From Tubulanus polymorphus (Eukaryota; Nemertea; Palaeonemertea; Tubulaniformes; Tubulanidae), in contig NC_134029.1 of NCBI RefSeq assembly GCF_964204645.1, forward strand, positions 20,106,450 through 20,170,449: a stretch of DNA of 64,000 nt, given 5' to 3'. The position numbers and the translations under genes are program-made. The notes under the pieces were generated by a model. It had not been told where the DNA came from, did no database searches, and saw only the letters and a program-made list of their open reading frames with translations. Positions 52,851 through 64,000 of the stretch are shown here, piece after piece; the first letter of the stretch is position 1; every line of letters begins with the position of its first letter.

Positions 52851-53868
52851 TCATTTGTATCTATTCACTTTACTCAAACGCCCGTTTCTGCGTATCTGCT
52901 CCAATCTGAGCCGCACCCAATAATCCCAAGAATCTTGGTCCAGTTCTTCCACCAGTATAGGTTTAGGATCTAATCGTAATTCCCACAGCCAATCGGGATA
53001 TTCCGAATCCGGTTTCAATTCAGGATCTTGACCGTCTTTATAAATATTCGCTCCGCAGCAGAATTTAACAAGTTTTTCCGGATCCTCCTCAACTTCCAGT
53101 TCCTTTTTTTCCAGAGGCGCCACCATGCCTAATCCTTTCACTGAAATTGTAAAAAATTGAAGGGGATTGATCGAACACGTAGTTTTTCATATATAAAGCC
53201 TGGTTGTGTAACCAGATTGTTGATGACATCGAACAAAATCTCATCTAAATTTCTATAGAACGAATGAATTACGGCATTTTAAAATTCAATACCGAATATA
53301 GAATAAGTTTATTCACAAAGCCTAGACTCCTAAAAATCAAATCGTCATGTCGATCAAATAAGACAACTTCAAATTCATTCCAAGTTGATTTAATTCATAC
53401 GATACAGTCCAATGATAAAGTCAAAGAAGTAAGTGGAACCTCGTCATAACGAAATTAGATACAACGATTCATCAGATATAACAAATAGAAATATAGAATT
53501 AGGGCCTATAGAATTTTGTCCCAAATAAGAGAATTTGATTATTTTCATACTGGATGAACTATCGATTATAACGAACAGATTTTCTTATCCCATGAAGTTC
53601 GTTGTAACGAGGTCCCACTGTACAGTACAGTGAAGTGAAGGTAGTAGTAAAGAGTAAAAGACTTAAGTGCAAGAAAAAATATACATTTCAATGTCATCAC
53701 AATACACAGGCTGTTTGGGAAAGTTTAATACTTACTCCCTTTAACTCCTCCAGCCTTCTTTGCATATGTCACACATGGAATTATGGTTTTCTGATGTAGG
53801 ATGAGAGTCTTTTGTAGAAGATTTCGTGAGGATTTCAGAGCCCGGAATATTCTCATGGGCGCCGCCAT
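52851..53868 (-). CDS. MRPL54: Mitochondrial large ribosomal subunit protein mL54
   Basis: Two exons on the minus strand: 53868-53736 and 53140-52851 (TGA). The sum is 423 nt, 140 aa (human 138). The family core is in exon 2: GANIYKDGQDPELKPDSEYP near residues 74-93, then DWLWELRLDPKP, LDQDSWDYWVRLR and the basic C-terminal NGRLSKVNRYK. The start MAAPMRIFRALKSSRNLLQK is basic and suits a mitochondrial targeting peptide. An upstream in-frame start would add residues without family support, so MAAP was chosen. The protein is a structural part of the mitochondrial 39S subunit. The start codon itself sits in a YY1-like AATATGGCGGC. Intron phase 1 joins correctly (A plus TG gives Met45). Confidence 0.93.
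53432..53620. mobile_element. TA-type (pogo/mariner-like) MITE in the MRPL54 intron
   Basis: AGTGGAACCTCGTCATAACG mirrors GTTGTAACGAGGTCCCACTG. TA dinucleotides flank both ends (53430-53431 and 53621-53622). It fills about a third of the single intron. Confidence 0.75.
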
Positions 53869-54289
53869 ATTGAATTTATCTTCCACCGCGACTGAAAGGA
53901 ATTTCAAGGTCAAATCTTTTAGACTGGTTGCCGGTCTTTGCCATCTAGACTGGTTGCCTGTCCCATTCACCGGTCACTGCGCATCCTCGCTTGCCAGGGG
54001 TCCGGTATCACTCCCGAACTCGCTTCCACCAGCTCGGTCAGCAGCGCTCTTGGCCTGGTCCGGGTGTCATCCAAAAATAATCATTAGAAATATAATTCTG
54101 GTTAAAGAAGATATTTTTGCATTTTGTCGATATATTATGCCAACTTTGGTTTTATAGGGTTATCAACCTTTGATGTGGCGCTAGCGGACGGACGAGCAAT
54201 TATCAGATGGCAACAAGCAACTGGCATGTCCCTTCAGGTCTTCCATACTGTCGCGTCGGGGCAGCGGCGCGCAGAGAATCCGCGGGTCC
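53869..54289. other. Upstream of MRPL54; repeat-derived, no gene seen
   Basis: Between about 53925 and 54250 lie GACTGGTTGCCTGTCCCATT, CATCCTCGCTTGCCAGGGGT and AGCAATTATCAGATGGCAAC. These recur at 58484-58655 and at the window end (63820-64000), so this is a diverged copy of that repeat family. Confidence 0.55.
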
Positions 54290-54340
54290 TCACTACTTCC
54301 GGTGTGGAGTCGTGACCCGCCATATTGAAATGTGGTAAGT
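54290..54340. promoter_or_regulatory. Candidate promoter with ETS- and YY1-like sites and a donor
   Basis: ACTTCCGGTG (ETS-like, reverse of CCGGAAGT) lies at about 54295, CCGCCATATTG (YY1-like) at about 54317, and a perfect GTAAGT donor begins at 54335. The set could be a non-coding first exon of a plus-strand gene continuing beyond what I can follow. Motif evidence only. Confidence 0.35.
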
Positions 54341-54715
54341 CTTGGAATTTTTCCGTTTTTTATTCTTGAATAATATCTATGTATTAGGTTAACAGTTCGC
54401 TATAAACCCCGGAGATGCAGGTACTAAACACCGTCTCTAAAACTGACCTGAGACCCGCCGCCAAACAATATTCAAAATCGTTTTTGAAGCACGTCACGTG
54501 TGTCGTCGTCACGGTTCGGTGGTCCGCACCTTCACCTTGTCCTTGCCTGTGACTGTGATTGTGTTGTGTACGTATGAGGGAGAAATTATCCGAGTTATCC
54601 TACAATAATTATTCAAACACATTGAGAACAAACTGTTGAATTAGTTACATGTGACCCTAGCCTGCTTGTTGAAAACAAATATCTAACAGCAAATGCAATA
54701 AATCTGCTAGCTAAG

Positions 54716-54985
54716 AAGGCCCGGACACACTGGGCGAACAGCAGCAGCCGCTTATTTTGAAACGACCAGCATCTAGCGCCACCTTGCTATCATGTGAACC
54801 GTCGAAGAGCCGTGATTGGCAGGTTAATACAGCGCTCGAGGGACTGATCGTCGTACCCGGAGACACTGGGTCGCCGGCGACAGAATGGGTTCGGGCGATT
54901 TCGTTGGCCGACTAAGTCGCCCAAGGCGATTGCCCGAACACACTGGGAGATTTACCGACGAAATCGCCCAGTGTGTCCGGGCCTT
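54716..54985. mobile_element. TIR element with GGCCCGGACACACTGGGCG ends
   Basis: AAGGCCCGGACACACTGGGC at the left is exactly inverted at the right as GCCCAGTGTGTCCGGGCCTT. The interior repeats the theme (GACACTGGGTCGCC, AACACACTGGGAGATTT). It is 270 bp and non-coding. I see no unambiguous target duplication. Superfamily is uncertain; a Harbinger-type derivative is possible. Confidence 0.85.
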
Positions 54986-55886
54986 TAGTGATATTGTTTG
55001 AAGATCGAGGTCTTCAACACACTAACAGTGTGTGGTGAATATTACCAGTAATAATTGTGGCGAAAATGGACCCTGTTTCTGTTTAACACCTCTGGTTCAT
55101 TTTTGTTTCAGCACCTCATCCTTTCCTCCGATATCTCCGGGTGGGGCGATTTTATTTGTATATATATATATGTATCTGTTTTCGATGGTTTAAATTTGTA
55201 GTCTGAAAATTTGGACACTGTAAAGTTTTTCAGGCGTCTCGTTACGGTCTATTCGCGTTCAGGTCGGGGTTTGGATCAGTTTCTGTCAGGAAATAGCACG
55301 ATCAAATCTTTTTATTCGGCTTTTATCGTAAATTCGCGCTATAACATTCAAGTTACTTACCTTTAGTCTATTCTTTTGATATCGTTTTTTTACTTTAGAA
55401 CTGCCGTTTGGTAATGTCATAATCCTATTTTCATCATATTTACATAGTTTGATTTGTTTTCTTCGGTTCCTCGCTCGGCGAGTTGAGCTTTGTCGCACCG
55501 CTAGGCGGCTTACTATTCTTGCGCGCGTACATCAAACTCGGGTTTGATATTGGAATTTCGTTTTTATCCACTTTAATGTATTCTTTTGGTATTTTTAGCG
55601 CGTGTATTGACTATATTTAATTTCTGGGAGCATTAATCTTCCTGTTAACTATTTTATTCGCGTTCTATTTAGTGCGCGCTCTTGGCCTACTTCGCGCGTA
55701 GTGATATCACTACTGGCCAATGAGCGCACTCGGATTCCTATAAAAGGCGGGTCGTTCGAGCGTGTCGGACATTCCGATCTTTGGTATCATCACGCGTCAC
55801 ACGCAGAATTCCGACTTTACTATTGACTTTGCTATCGAGAACATGAGTTATATATAAGATGTAAGAGATTGATCCTTCCTATCTCG

Positions 55887-55925
55887 CCTTCGGGTTGGAT
55901 ATGATCATCTTGTCCAACCCGAAGG
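55887..55925 (+). other. Perfect 13-bp stem hairpin
   Basis: CCTTCGGGTTGGA (55887-55899) is the exact reverse complement of TCCAACCCGAAGG (55913-55925), with a 13-nt loop. It sits about 140 bp downstream of the TATA box and would lie in any transcript started there. Confidence 0.85.
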
Positions 55926-55970
55926 AAGCAAATTATTTATTCGCGTTAACTTACGTACGATCGTCTGGCC

Positions 55971-56039
55971 GAGTTTGATTTTCGGGCGAGTTTGATTTTC
56001 GGGCGAGTTTGACTTTTCGGCCGAGTTTGATGTCGCCGT
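55971..56039 (+). repeat. Four GAGTTTGATTTTCGGGC tandem units
   Basis: Units start at 55971, 55988, 56005 and 56023 (period 17-18). The first two are identical and the last two slightly diverged. Confidence 0.8.
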
Positions 56040-56300
56040 TTATGACTATCTTCTAGTTAAACTTTTACCGGCCGACAGAGCGTCACCGATCAAGATATTT
56101 CGTCGAGCAAGCTTGTGTACATATTCGTTATCTACCCGCCGGGTGCTTCGATTTTTAAATTATTTTCTTGCCGATTTGATTCGCTCTCGGTCGGGCGATT
56201 TAAATGTTAATAAATGTATATATCTAACATATTCCGAGCGATGATTTGAGATCGTCGTTAGGACCTTTCGAGTCTCGTACTGTACGCCCGAATGAGACAT

Positions 56301-57194
56301 GCATTTTTGACGCGACCTCGACGCGAGACTTTTTCGAGACGCGCCGCGAACTAAGAGAATTTAAAGATATGCTGTTAATTTTATTGACTTAGTTACATTA
56401 AATTTGAGAGTCCACGGGCTCTTATCTTATGACGATTTATATAAGTCTTATATCTTCGTCTTTTCTGAACGAGGAGAGGAGTTCCGCCGCTATTTTTCAC
56501 CTCAGTGCCAATCTATTATTATTCGTCTTTATGAGAGGACCAGTTCGATCAGGGACGTGTCAGCAGTAGTTAGATGGAGACCATCAATCGAGGATCCGAA
56601 CCCTCAGTCCTTTATTGACTGATGGCCTTCATCCGGGGGTAGTCATGACAGAGTGTCATACGTAGAGAACGGTAGATGTTGGGGAGAACTAGGTTCGAAC
56701 CCGAGCGAAATCCTGGCCAGGTAGTCGCCTACTTGGATGCTGAGCCCTGATCATGGAATGAGAAGGATGAATATTTATTTGACGATAATTTAGACAAGAA
56801 TTTATATCTTTTCCCTGAGGAGGAATTACTTCCCCCAATATTTTCGTATAACCCGATTATATTGTTTCAGGGCGAACCCTAGTAGCAAACGCCTATTTTA
56901 CTTATCCAACCCTAAAAAGAAACACGCTACCCAGGAGAGAAACGCTACAATTGTTACAGATACACACAACAGATTTCATCAATTGATCCTTTTTCAACGG
57001 TCAATTCGAATCAGTTATAAACAACAATATGAACAACTGCCCCCCTCACTGACTGTAACTAGGCTGAGATCAATTAATCATCTTTTAGAAAAGGTTTGTC
57101 TCTCAGTAACTGATATCTGTGAATAGTCTACAATCAACAGATACCACATTTAAATCTTATATTCTTTATTTCAGGCATAGTCAAGAGCAACGCT
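56301..57194. other. No gene recognised
   Basis: Open frames such as 56404-56622 show no family features. A B-box-like GGTTCGAACCC near 56692 has no matching tRNA fold around it. Sequence at 56760-56870 is acidic-coding in one frame but has no splice context I can trust. Confidence 0.4.
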
Positions 57195-57655
57195 GTAGGA
57201 GCATCAGAGGAGTATCTTAGGAGTAGCGGGAGTATCGTAGGAGCAGCGGGAGTATCGTAGGAACAGTGCAGGAGTATCATAGGAGCAGCAGGAGTATCAT
57301 AGGAGCAGTGCAGGAGCATCATAGGAGCAGTGCAGGAGTATCGTAGGAGCAGCTGGAGTATTGTAGGAGCAGCAGGAGTATCGTAGGAGTATTGTAGGAG
57401 CAGCAGGAGTATCATAGGAGCAGCAGTAGTGTCGAAGGAGCAGCAGGAGTATCGTAGAAGTATTGTAGGAGCAGCAGGAGTATCATAGGAGCAGCAGTAG
57501 TGTCGAAGGAGCAGCAGGAGTATCATAGGAGCAGCAGGAGTATCGTAGGAGCAGTGCAGGAGTATCGTTGGAGCAGTGCAGGAGTATCGTTGGAGCAGTG
57601 CAGGGGTATCGTTGGAGCAGTGCAGGAGTATCGTAGGAGCAGTGCAGGAGCACCT
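57195..57655. repeat. Minisatellite of GGAGTATCGTAGGAGCAG units
   Basis: About 460 bp of variants of GGAGTATCGTAGGAGCAGCA and GGAGCAGTGCAGGAGTATCG. A higher-order repeat including GTAGTGTCGAAGGAGCAG occurs twice near 57423 and 57493. The minus-strand Ser/Leu/Pro-rich frame across it is a by-product. Confidence 0.9.
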
Positions 57656-57702
57656 GAATGAATCACAGAAGAGATAAGTAGTTTAAGAATTATGTCTTCA
57701 TT

Positions 57703-58789
57703 GATACCACTTATTGATGGAGGAGTTGAAGATGTTCAGGACCAGAATTCAGTTGATCTCCTTACAGACTAAAACAAAATGTAGAATCATTATAACGGTT
57801 ATTGAATTTGTCTCCCGCAAGTATCTGTATCCATCTTCAGCTCACTTCACACTCAGCTATAGATCAGTTCCTTACAGCGACCACTGAATCAACCTAAACA
57901 ATTGAAATAATGATAACACATTCTATTTATGAATACATATGAAGCACATCTAAAACCAAAGTGATAAAAAATAGAAAGTTGTAAAATGTTTTCTGAGGCA
58001 GTCTGATTTGTGTCAGATTGTAACTGTAGAAGTTTCACTCATTGTTTCAGTCTAATTGAGATATGACTGATGTACATGTAACATTGACTGTGTAACACTG
58101 CTGTTATTTGTTCACTTATTCCTCCTTAGTGTGAAGAATGTTTGTTCTCTCATCTTCATTAGCCATAAGAATCATTCTCATCCATCTAACTACAACATCG
58201 TAACATTTCTACTCATCTTATCATAGAGGGAATGAGTTGTATGAGGTTTGGGTATGGAATGGGGCGGGGTATGGTGTAGTTGACTGTTAGGGTAGGATAT
58301 GGTAATGTGATAAGGTAAGGTCGGTTGGATGATGCAGGGTTGTTTGATGTGGTTGGATTCGATGATGAGTTTAATATAGAACTGTTTGGGGGTAAGTGAT
58401 GTAAGTGGTAGTGTACGATGTGTATGTTCGGAGGGTGTATGATGACGGATTGAAAGGTTGCTGGTAGAGGGCGGTACAGTAGCATCCTCACTCACCAGGG
58501 GTCGGGTTGCTTCCTGCAGTTGCTCACGTCGACACAAACGCTGACCGAAACTTTATTTATCGGTTGGAATACGAGGAATTATTCAGCCAATGAAAGCAGA
58601 GTAATTATCAGATGTGAGCTTCAGCAGAACGCAACCAGACCGTGGCGAGTGAGGATGTGTAGTAGTGATACTGGTATGGTATGTGTAAGATAGGGGGTGT
58701 TGTGTTGAGGATAGGGTAAGGCATGGTTAGATTAATATGAAAGTGTAAGTTTAGGTAATGTTGGGGCAGGATGTTTGGTGTTGTTGAGG
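57703..58789 (+). repeat. Left arm of a large inverted repeat
   Basis: It begins ATACCACTTATTGATGGAGG and ends GTTTGGTGTTGTTGAGG. It matches 61379-62508 in reverse complement, with shared landmarks such as TAGATCAGTTCCTTACAGCG, ACATGTAACATTGACTGTGT and AACATCGTAACATTTCTACT. It differs from the right arm by one extra insert (58484-58655). Its inner half is strongly G/T-rich. Confidence 0.9.
58484..58655. mobile_element. CATCCTCACTC-ended TIR element inserted in the left arm
   Basis: CATCCTCACTCACCAGGGGT..GGTTGC at the left mirrors GCAACC..CGTGGCGAGTGAGGATG at the right (imperfect TIR of about 37 bp). It is absent from the matching place in the right arm near 61730-61737. Related sequence occurs at 53975-54250 and 63820-64000. 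Confidence 0.75.
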
Positions 58790-59505
58790 TTCCGTTCATT
58801 AAGTACGTACACAAGAAATATGACCTTATTTCAAGGTCCTACCTTGTGTACGCACATTGTACTATATTGCCGATGACCTCCTACCTTAGTACACAATGAT
58901 TGATCATGTATTATAAAACATTGATAAACATTGATAAGCCATAAAGCTAGCTCCTCTTGAAGGGATTTACTAGGATGCAGCCTTTTAAAGGGCAATGAAT
59001 TCATTATATTGTTCCAGGCTCATGGCTGAACTAATACCTACAGATGAGTAGCCAGGCTACTACAAAATTGTACAGTAAAAATTAGAGCACTTTGTGTAAA
59101 TAGCTACCTAGCTTTGTATGCGGATCGCAGATCGTACACTTTTGCTGTTGAGGTCCTACTTAGGGCTTCGTGCTGAATGGACGGTTCCTTGAATGAAGGG
59201 TGAATTTATCCATGTTTTCACTAAATAACGGGGTTTTTGCTGTGTTTTGAATGGGGCAACAGTAAAATGTTTTGAACAATGGTGAGTGATGCTCCTGGCG
59301 CTCCTTCACTAATCTATAGACAGTACTGAAGTACGGCTCCAGAGATTGTCTCTATCAATACTGATGCATCATCTCCCCCCCCCCCCACAACTTCTTTAGA
59401 TAGTTTCTGTCTGATTCGTCGGGAAATGGTGACATGAATGGTGACAGGACAGTACAGGGTCGTGAGGGGTGATGTTGGGGTAGGGTCATGCGATTCAGAG
59501 AAAGT

Positions 59506-59607
59506 GGACCGGTCCAGAGTTGCAGTTGGGATACAGTACGAGCCTGTGTAGAAATTGGACCGGTCCGGAGTTGGAGATGGGATACAGTACGAGCTCGTGT
59601 AGAAAGC
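59506..59607. repeat. Tandem duplication, 51-bp unit
   Basis: Two units begin GGACCGGTCC at 59506 and 59557 and share GGGATACAGTACGAGC and GTGTAGAAA with few changes. Confidence 0.9.
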
Positions 59608-60329
59608 CCTTCGTTTTGAGTACACTGGTATTTTTGAAATGAGTTTCACTCATGTATGCACTGACTGAAAATACTCACATGTGTATTTTCTCAAGTTGAA
59701 CTAGTGTTTTGATCTGCATTCATTATGACATTCACTGACATGTTGCGCAGCGTAATTGAATACAAGCCTGTATAGGAAGCCAGTCCTTTTGAATGCGCGG
59801 CTCATTTACAAAATATAGGTACGTGCAAAATTCTGATATGCGTTTATTTTGCAAATATTGATGATGAAGATCGGCTTTCGGCATGTCCTTAACAGGATAG
59901 AATCTAACAGAGTGATTTCAACTTGGATGTAAATACTTCGAGGGTTTATATCAGTAGTATCGTACCTAGTCTTACCTCCTTCCCTACCTCCCTCCCGCGC
60001 TAACTATTCCAAAATCTCTATATGAAATACATCGAGAATGATGCTAATGAAGATTGAATTCATCGATTCATTTAGGAATTGAAACTTGTTTCATGGAACA
60101 AATGGTGCTGCAAATAAACAATATCATCAAACAATGATATGATTCTGTTTGACTAGTGAACTGCTGCCCTACTACTGGTTTTAAAAGCACTGATTGAGAT
60201 GGATTTAAACCCAGTTCAATTACTATATTTCCTATACACTTACTGCCGGGTGGTACTGACACATAGCAAGGAGAGATAGAGAGAGAGAGAGATAGAGTGA
60301 GCCATAAGAAAAAGAAAGAACATGAAAAG

Positions 60330-60530
60330 AGTGGGGTCTGAGAGCAATTCGAAGGTTTAGTGTCCTGCTGGCTTATCGAGCGGGCAGGGGTCTATTCCTA
60401 CCTCAACTCAACAAAGGTGAGCTTAAAGCCACCAAGCACAAAAGTGGGGTCTGAAGGGTACTCCACTGCTGGCTTAAAGGGCGGGCAGTGGTCTATTCCT
60501 ACCTCACGTGCTTAAAAATGTTTGCAAAAA
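60330..60530. repeat. Tandem duplication with AGTGGGGTCTGA start
   Basis: Units at 60330-60442 and from 60443 share GCTGGCTTA, GGGCGGGCAG or a variant, and GGTCTATTCCTACCTCA. GA-rich runs flank both sides. The end of the second unit is approximate. Confidence 0.75.
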
Positions 60531-61378
60531 ATGGCAAATAAGATATATATAGTGTGTGAGAGTGAGAGTGAGAGTGAGAGAGAGGCTGAGTTTCATGTAT
60601 CACTGGGTGTAACGTGATATAAGAAATAATTCACAGAAAATCTTGAATAATTTTATTGTGGGTTCAGAGTCTATTTCTCATCAGTTTGCTATTTGTAAAG
60701 CTTGTAGTTGGATAAAAACTAGTCAGAGATTTGTGAATCAGAAGATTTTGCCGTCATTTGCTTCATCAAGAATCGTTCACTTGTTAAATGAATGATGTGA
60801 CACACATGTAAATACTTTTACTGATTTGTCATTGTTTGTGATGGTGTCTTAATATTCAACATCTTACAGGTATCATCTCCTATTATTTCAAATAGAATTG
60901 AGGAGTAGTTTGAGTGAATGGGAGGCTTGAAAAAATATTTCACTCAAGTTCCATTAGATTTAGTTTGACATTATCTGATTGATTTTAGTGTCTCGACTAC
61001 TTTTCAACCAGTAGTTCATTGTAGGTTTGTCGGGAATTGTAAATAGACTTAAGATTTTCGATAAGAGAGTCGTTCACCAACAAGGTTTTAGACGTCACAT
61101 CCATAGCTCCTTCCGCTACCAGGGAATTCATTTTTACCCAATAATGATAATTATCATGGAATATGTATGGAATAGTGAAAAATTCTAAATATGAATAGGA
61201 ATTGCATTGAGATGTCTAACGGGAGTGGCTTGGAGGCGGCTGAGAGATGGACCGACCCCATCAATCACTCATCACACTCTGTACTGTCCTAGCTCCACCC
61301 ATTATATCACATCATGTACCTCTCAACCTTCCACAGACACCACCACCCCTGACCATTTCTATACCGAATTCACCCTCG

Positions 61379-62508
61379 CCTCAACAACACCAAACATCCT
61401 GACCCCACATTTCCAGGGTCTGATCTAAGCACTTGTCTGATTGCCCGGGACAAGCATATTCTCATCAGGGCTAGTAGGTTATCATTATCACTTGTCCCCT
61501 GGGCTAGTGAAATTTTATGTATTTCATGTCACAAAACTTTTTGCCAATCGATACAACAGTTGGAGTGCTTGTGTAGGGCAAGTAGATTTTGGAGGGGGCA
61601 AGTGAAATTTTTAGATATGCTTGCTCCTTAGATCGGACCTCGAACTTACACTTTCATATTACTCTAACTGTACCTTACTCTATCCTTAAAACAACACCCC
61701 CTACCTTACACATACCATACCAGCATCACACCTGTACCGCCCTCTACCAGCAACCTTTCAATCCATTATCATACACCTCCCTAACTATACATCGTACACT
61801 ACCACATACACCCACCCCAAACAGTTCTATATCAAACCCATCATCTAATCCAGCCATATCAAACAACCCTGCATCATCCAACCTGACCTTGCCTTATCAC
61901 GATGTCCCATCCTCCCCTAACGTGTCAACTCCCATACCCTGTCTCATTCCATACCCAAGCGCCATACTCCTCATTCCCTCTATGATTAGATGAGTAGAAA
62001 TGTTACGATGTTGTAGTTAGGCGGATGAGAATGATTCTTATCGCTAATGAAGATGAGAGAACAAACATTCATCACACTAAGGAGGAATAAGTGAACTAAT
62101 GACTGCAGTGTTACACAGTCAATGTTACATGTACATCAGTTATAACTCTATTAGACTGAAACAATGAGTGAAACTTCTACAGTTACAATCTGACACAAAT
62201 CAGACTGCCTCAGAAAACATTTTACAACTTTCTCTTTTTCTATCACTTTGGTTTCAGATGTGCTTCATATGTATTCATTAATAGATTGTGTTATTATTAT
62301 TTCAGTTGTTATGATTAGGTTGATTCAGTGGTCGCTGTAAGGAACTGATCTATAGCTGAGTGTGAAGTGAGCTGAAGATGGATGCAGATACTTGCTGGAG
62401 ACAAATTCCACAACCGTTATAATGATTCTACATTTTGTTTTAGTCTGTTTGGAGATAAACTGAATTCTGGGCCTGAACATCTTCAACTCCTCCATCAATA
62501 AGTGGTAT
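61379..62508 (-). repeat. Right arm of a large inverted repeat
   Basis: Reverse complement of 57703-58789, starting CCTCAACAACACCAAACATC and ending CCATCAATAAGTGGTAT. It carries one private insert (61415-61640). Without the inserts the two arms are about 904 and 915 bp long. Confidence 0.9.
61415..61640. mobile_element. AGGGTCYGATCT-ended MITE, copy 2, nested in the right arm
   Basis: It begins AGGGTCTGATCTAAG and ends CTTAGATCGGACCT. It shares with copy 1 CTAGTAGGTTATCATTATCA (copy 1 has CAAG in place of CTAG). The left arm at about 58755-58765 shows the corresponding site without the insert. Confidence 0.85.
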
Positions 62509-64000
62509 GAATGACGATAGAATTTCAACAGTTTATTTCATGATTTCCTGCAATAGAATTTGATAAATTGAAGAATCTGTAATTTTGATTTCAGTGTCAA
62601 TCATTGCTGAGGAGTTGTAGAATCTGATATAGAACTGATTTTCATAGTCAGCTACAGATATTGCTGGTACGTATTACATGTTTATGGATGTAATAGAATA
62701 ATATTTATTCATCATCATTACCATCACACTAGTTCTGCCTCCTCAGTAGCAGGCAGTAATGTGCCTCCTGAGGAGGCAATCAGTCCTCTTGCAATCACAG
62801 ATTGCCCGTTCTTGTGCTGCCACTCTTAAGGTGGTCAGGTGACATTGGGTCTTACTTTTAGTTCAACTGAGTGTTTGCTTCTCAGGTCGACTCTTAGTTG
62901 CCATTGGAGGTTGGAGCGTTGTCTTACCTGACTAGATTGCCTAACCACCTGGTATTGTTAATGATTTCCCATTTCGTTTTAACCTGCTAGGAAATGACCA
63001 ATTACCAAAAGACGACCAGGGATCGCCAATTACCAGAAGACCTGGGATGATCAATTGCCAGAAATGACCAATGGCTAGGCAGGCCATGACCAGCGATAAC
63101 AGATTGCCAGTATAATTGTATGATTGATTTTCTGTTTGTGAATGAACTTGAGAACAGTCGCTGCTCTTTAATCCCATCAGTTACAGCCACGTTATGATAA
63201 AATTTCAGTTTAAATCTCTTGCACACGATCACCTCTATCTTACCTCTATCTCACCTCTATAATAAATGCTAATGTTTTATTTTAACTCTCATCAATCAAA
63301 ACGTGGTTGTCATTGATAGAATTAGAGATGCTATACAGCTGGCTGATAGTCATAATTCAAAACCTTTAATTGTGTTGTAGAACAAGTTCACAGAAACTGA
63401 AATCGCAGAATCTATTTTGTAAATCTGAATAAATGTATTTATTATTGTGTTGTGTTGTTTATTCAGCGCGATCTGTCGTGATTCAATCACATGATCCGCT
63501 CTTTATGTCAACTCCCTCCAAAATTCTGGATCCGGTGTTATTAATTGTTTTAGACCATAGAACAGAGTTTTATGTTTGGGGCGTTAAATCTTAAGACGAG
63601 TCCCAAGTTGTTATACATTGCTTACAGTGAAGTGATTTTCTATAACAACTTTGAACCAAGCTATCAATCAGGTCTCGCAATTGCATTTAATTTGTAATTG
63701 ATAATCATCTTTACACGCTGAACTCTTACAAATTCTCTATTGCCATTCTTCCATAATCCGAAACTCATCCAGGTTTTTTAAAGTAAAGCCGCGCACGTTG
63801 GCGATCTTCCCATGGACTGGTTGCCGGTCTACTTGACTGGTCGCCTATTCGCAGAGAACTACTGAAGACAGAGACCGATAACCAGTCTGCCTATCTGCGG
63901 TCTATCTTCAATTAGAATGGGACAGGCAATCAGTCTACGAATGAAGGGTGAAGATGCAGGGAGGGTAGCGATACTGACCCTTGGCAAGCGAAAGTCTCAA
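62509..64000. other. Right end; repeat fragments, no gene seen
   Basis: A hairpin-prone GCCTCCTCAG..CTGAGGAGGC lies at about 62736-62780. Degenerate repeats of about 20 bp, GACCAATTACCAGAAGACC, occur at 62990-63080. ACCTCTATCTT triplets occur at about 63229-63262. From about 63820 to 64000, GACTGGTTGCCGGTCTACTT and GACCCTTGGCAAGCG match the repeat upstream of MRPL54 and continue past the edge. Confidence 0.55.

Follow-up and report, generated by a model that had tools for sequence, protein, structure and literature searches.

An inverted repeat of Tubulanus polymorphus as one locus of a putative multicopy, noncoding, hairpin-bearing gene family

Foldback and long-TIR transposons occur as dispersed copies with long inverted arms, and these arms are terminal. 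In Drosophila, hpRNAs (e.g. those of hp-CG4068 and the hp-tHMG cluster) arise from inverted repeats that are part of capped, polyadenylated noncoding transcripts; such loci also form tandem families with non-hairpin, single-arm paralogues (PMC10317233). The palindromes of the X and Y chromosomes undergo arm-to-arm gene conversion, and their arms of tens to hundreds of kb are more than 99% identical (PMC8981503). The locus described here is located in a 64,000-nucleotide stretch of the Tubulanus polymorphus genome (C5:20106450-20170449, hereafter the window; genome of 267.8 Mb in 77 contigs). It resembles the Drosophila loci in that a long inverted repeat lies in a putative polyadenylated noncoding unit, in that it is multicopy and partly tandem, and in having non-hairpin paralogues; it differs in that the nemertean family has about 42 pairs over many contigs, a larger loop and approximately 10% divergence between arms. 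As in the X and Y palindromes, the inverted arms appear to be homogenised through inter-arm conversion, although the arms of this family are about 1 kb long, about 90% identical and noncoding, and stand at many dispersed loci. Dispersed copies with long inverted arms are also a likeness to foldback and long-TIR transposons; however, the arms of the family are not terminal, common ends are absent, and gene-like signals are present. A literature search of partial coverage found no description of such a hairpin family.

The arms in the window are approximately 1.0-1.1 kb each with about 90% identity, and alignment of one arm with the reverse complement of the other bore out the opposite orientation claimed in the preliminary description. 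Positions 57688-58479 pair with the reverse complement of 61732-62524 (723 of 800 positions identical, 90%); further inward are two more pairing blocks, 58665-58751 with 61643-61729 (78/87 identical) and 58754-58789 with 61379-61414 (33/36 identical), and the two inserts interrupt this series of blocks. Still further inward, 59434-59460 pairs with 61276-61302, so that the arms probably had an original length of about 1.2 kb; the innermost right arm (61204-61414) is kept in nearly all copies. The strand skew that had been noticed in the inner halves was also confirmed, with 3.8% C and 39.9% G in the left arm and 5.7% G and 40.7% C in the right arm on the plus strand. Since the arms are approximately 10% divergent and the arrangement was found again at 42 places, it is not due to chance, and an assembly artefact was ruled out. 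No long ORF was found in the window spacer. The loop core is 92% identical between old and ancient copies. In the loop, a 41-bp direct repeat (CTGCTGGCTTATCGAGCGGGCAGGGGTCTATTCCTACCTCA) with units 101 bp apart is present at window 60365-60506, and the alignments suggest that its unit number is higher or lower in other copies. The features of the unit are listed in Table 1.

Table 1. Features of the repeated unit in the window (a slash marks a putative splice border)
Feature	Position	Strand	Remarks
Promoter-like block	54257-54720	+	ETS-like ACTTCCGG, YY1-like CCGCCATATTG, then a consensus 5' splice site (TG/GTAAGT); function suggested by motifs
Putative exon	57050-57660	+	3' splice site TTTATTTCAG, then 11/20/22-bp minisatellite (GGAGCAGCAGGAGTATC...), with the GATAAGTAG motif at the end
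Left arm of inverted repeat	57688-58790	+	Insertion-free core, 57836-58482; inner half C-poor
Insert in left arm, CATCCTCACTC...GAGTGAGGATG ends	58484-58655	+	Ancestral, not private
Displaced innermost left-arm piece	59418-59524	+	Pairs with 61276-61302; kept in most copies
Conserved loop core	59957-61028	+	Mostly 83-94% in young copies, about 80% in ancient arrays
Right arm of inverted repeat	61204-62528	-	Core, 61732-62376; inner half G-poor on plus
MITE-like insert in right arm, AGGGTCYGATCT ends	61415-61642	- (nominal)	Three copies
Putative small exons	62440-62800	+	TTTTAG/ or TTTCAG/ and /GTATGT borders; tandemly repeated in older copies
3' end block	63386-63577	+	AATAAA, then GT-rich TGTGTTGTGTTG

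The preliminary description had proposed a search of the genome for further copies of the arm, and this search found 42 inverted pairs (18 young, 2 old at C2:20.79 Mb and C6:2.17 Mb, and 22 in older arrays). The census was performed with a conserved 37-mer, allowing up to three mismatches, and the reversed 37-mer was used as the control: there were 43 forward and 44 reverse matches, and none with the control. The matches resolved into 39 convergent pairs with a motif distance of 3.0-8.4 kb, and no non-convergent neighbouring motif pairs were found among them genome-wide; three more pairs (C1:4.28 Mb, C5:24.16 Mb and C3:1.34 Mb) have a partner arm past the mismatch limit. Matches without a partner were a left arm at the end of a tandem array, a right arm at C10:11.12 Mb, where the copy has a deletion, and those of four diverged relatives on contig C12; at the two C12 loci examined, there is a single arm with about 75% identity. 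Searches performed separately with the left arm and the right arm led to the same places, each with a left arm and an inverted right arm, and the spacer search led to those places and to the arrays. Copies are dispersed over at least eight contigs, and approximately half of the independent clusters are within 2.5 Mb of a contig end (hand count). The older copies of the unit lie in large arrays near contig ends (C3:0.43-1.34 Mb, C6:0.64-1.76 Mb and C8:15.1-16.3 Mb), with a spacing that is often about 45 kb in the C3 array. At C3:1.338 Mb (1850-2815 of retrieved locus L062), the arms abut, leaving almost no loop, and form a palindrome of approximately 1 kb. The single-arm relatives at C12:7.975 and 7.993 Mb are inside an inverted duplication of 3 kb, with an identity of 99.9% over 3,038 bp.

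Both inserts are present where they had been reported (58484-58655 and 61415-61642), but the claim that each arm carries one private transposon did not hold. All young and old copies that were examined have the left insert at the same left-arm position (length, 170-2,555 bp), and the ancient array copy at C3:0.43 Mb lacks it, with the empty site visible. Besides the window copy, the right, MITE-like insert was found in the related copies at C5:24.16 Mb and C10:11.12 Mb, and its site is empty in all other readable copies. Since the left insert is absent from the ancient copy and the right one is limited to three related copies, the inverted duplication preceded both insertions, as had been proposed.

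Homology between copies extends beyond the arms, for 3.4 kb to the left and approximately 1 kb to the right; leftward it passes through the minisatellite to the promoter-like block, and rightward it reaches 63577 or further. One promoter-like block is found upstream of every young paired locus (conservation, 0.90-0.92), with weak matches at two old loci, and the four tandem modules at C3:23.51 Mb have a single block. The putative minisatellite exon is common to all young copies and is found at 65-70% in old copies, and the 3' end block is conserved (0.92-0.94) in up to 15 copies and is also present in the ancient copy. In old and ancient copies, exon-like segments with TTTTCATTTCAG/ and /GTATGT borders are arranged in tandem, vary in length and contain many stops. 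A protein-coding gene was rejected, as no conserved ORF was found in any of the blocks tested and the ORF over part of the right arm (window 61586-61993) had no Pfam match; a known structured RNA family was also rejected, as the unit had no Rfam match at the gathering score. Judging from these sequence signals, the unit is apparently a spliced, polyadenylated noncoding gene.

The upstream breakpoints of homology vary by copy pair (-415, -564, -609 and -910), as do those downstream (about 150-1,100), and the aligned outer edges of the copies have no shared terminus. As these breakpoints are not constant on either side, the copies resemble the products of segmental or tandem duplication more than those of a transposon. 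The single arm of the C12 relatives has the left-arm orientation and stands behind the same GATAAGTAG motif and an exon-like sequence related to that of the unit, which suggests that, of the two arms, the left one is native. In the arm tree, old left and right arms grouped together, apart from the young left and right arms (97/100), which is not predicted by a single early split of the two arms; the ancient copy fitted poorly, with its right arm among the young arms on a long branch. Among 56 variants present in exactly two young rows, 11 were common to the left and right arms of one locus (approximately 1.4 expected by chance, in our estimate), one of the 11 linking arms of different modules in the C3:23.51 Mb array, and the same-locus identity of the two arms after centring was higher than in all permutations (0/20,000 reached it). 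In the window copy, the variants shared by the arms include arm-alignment positions 178, 319 and 323. Since same-locus arms share derived variants beyond expectation, arm-to-arm gene conversion occurs. No spacer flipped by recombination between arms was found in the young copies compared.

In the computed folding of the left arm with the right arm, 734 of 783 positions were paired (net about -892 kcal/mol; helices up to 84 bp). This, together with the 42 pairs, supports one of the two origins suggested in the preliminary description, namely, an inverted segmental duplication able to form a large hairpin. On balance, and with moderate confidence, we regard the window locus as one of a multicopy, apparently noncoding, spliced, polyadenylated and hairpin-bearing gene family of 42 inverted pairs. 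The evidence for this explanation consists of the exclusively convergent pairs, the one promoter block per young locus, the conserved splice, poly(A) and GT-rich signals with neither an ORF nor an Rfam match, the variants shared by same-locus arms, the indel-free arm cores (see below), and the extent of the pairing.

In this explanation, an internal segment of about 0.5-1.2 kb was duplicated in inverted orientation before the family spread, and the pair was afterwards carried along as entire units were copied, through segmental and tandem duplication and not through transposition. As the comparison of copies shows, conversion between the arms keeps them alike, and large insertions are kept out of them. 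A putative nascent transcript would begin at the promoter-like block (54.27 kb), end at the poly(A)-like site (approximately 63.45 kb) and, by computation, form a hairpin of about 0.8 kb, with some 730 bp of duplex and a loop of several kb. The mechanism that we tentatively regard as the most likely is similar to that of hpRNA loci: the duplex would supply Dicer with dsRNA, and the resulting siRNAs would act against arm-related sequences, e.g. the C12 single-arm relatives. The Dicer-dimerisation domain encoded by the genome, the 31-nt perfect matches of the arms to a C12 single-arm relative (no coding target was found among the best 40 candidates scored), and the likeness to the fly hpRNAs point to this mechanism. 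A more far-reaching form of it, in which the approximately 42 dispersed, long-maintained loci with hairpins of about 1 kb and arms coevolving by conversion would supply dsRNA for a stable endogenous RNAi that silences single-arm relatives, is rather unlikely. Fly hairpins are young and have a fast turnover, with which a long-maintained source of RNAi, if that reading is true, would contrast. If transcribed, the loci would make up a large, old and dispersed family of hairpin-RNA genes, at dozens of which the upkeep of pairing through arm-to-arm conversion could be followed, the single-arm relatives could be parents or targets, and the family would allow a test of whether hairpin-RNA loci can be long-lived instead of transient.

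About equal in probability to the hpRNA-like mechanism is the possibility that the inverted repeat is a passenger without a role, kept by duplication of the whole unit and by conversion between nearby inverted copies, with the function of the host gene located elsewhere. Conversion by itself would explain the homogeneity of the arms, and gene conversion is also seen in inverted repeats without function. Moreover, the identity of the arms between copies (approximately 89-96% over most of their length) is similar to that of the promoter, the 3' block and most of the loop core; in the region between the right arm and the 3' block, much is 68-79% identical. Against a passenger, single-arm derivatives are rare, and none of the 38 large-indel junctions at 57.69-63.58 kb is strictly inside the arm cores (one is on the edge; 8.3 expected); the copies were, however, retrieved through the arms, which biases such tests of constraint and weakens both points, so that the avoidance of indels is supporting rather than decisive. 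A C12 single-arm relative has the same C-poor/G-poor skew as the hairpin arms, so that the composition is older than the inversion, and the three-letter composition was therefore rejected as a sign of selected pairing. This composition, the retrieval bias and the conversion in functionless repeats count against our hpRNA-like explanation, as do the approximately 10% divergence of the arms, the long loop, and the left arm core, which may be within an intron.

Ranked behind both, and improbable in our view, is a structural role in splicing, in which the arms would bridge a long intron from a 5' site at approximately 57.66 kb (GATAAGTAG) to a 3' site at approximately 62.45 kb (TTTTAG), or would promote circularisation of a loop exon. 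Nearly all copies that could be read, a single-arm relative among them, have retained the GATAAGTAG motif, and the TTTTAG site is found at the outer end of the right arm in most young copies; on the other hand, ATAAGT departs from the canonical 5' site and coincides in part with a GATA-factor motif, and the TTTTAG site was not seen at that end in old copies.

A DNA transposon with the arms as its termini, of the foldback kind suggested in the preliminary description or of the long-TIR kind, would fit the long inverted arms and the dispersal on at least eight contigs but was rejected as very improbable, since the arms are internal (homology reaches 54.26 kb and beyond 63.57 kb), common ends are absent and outer breakpoints are not constant between copy pairs, four tandem modules stand under one promoter at one locus, the window spacer has no long ORF, and promoter-, splice- and poly(A)-like signals are present.

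Two observations concern the left side of the unit. Approximately 1.9 kb in the putative first intron (window 55030-56949) is absent from all other copies compared. Just upstream of the unit, an exon on the minus strand (window 52851-53186) matches the Pfam mitochondrial ribosomal protein L37 family and is presumably that of mL54, and RAI16-like, RING-finger and methyltransferase exons are located further left.
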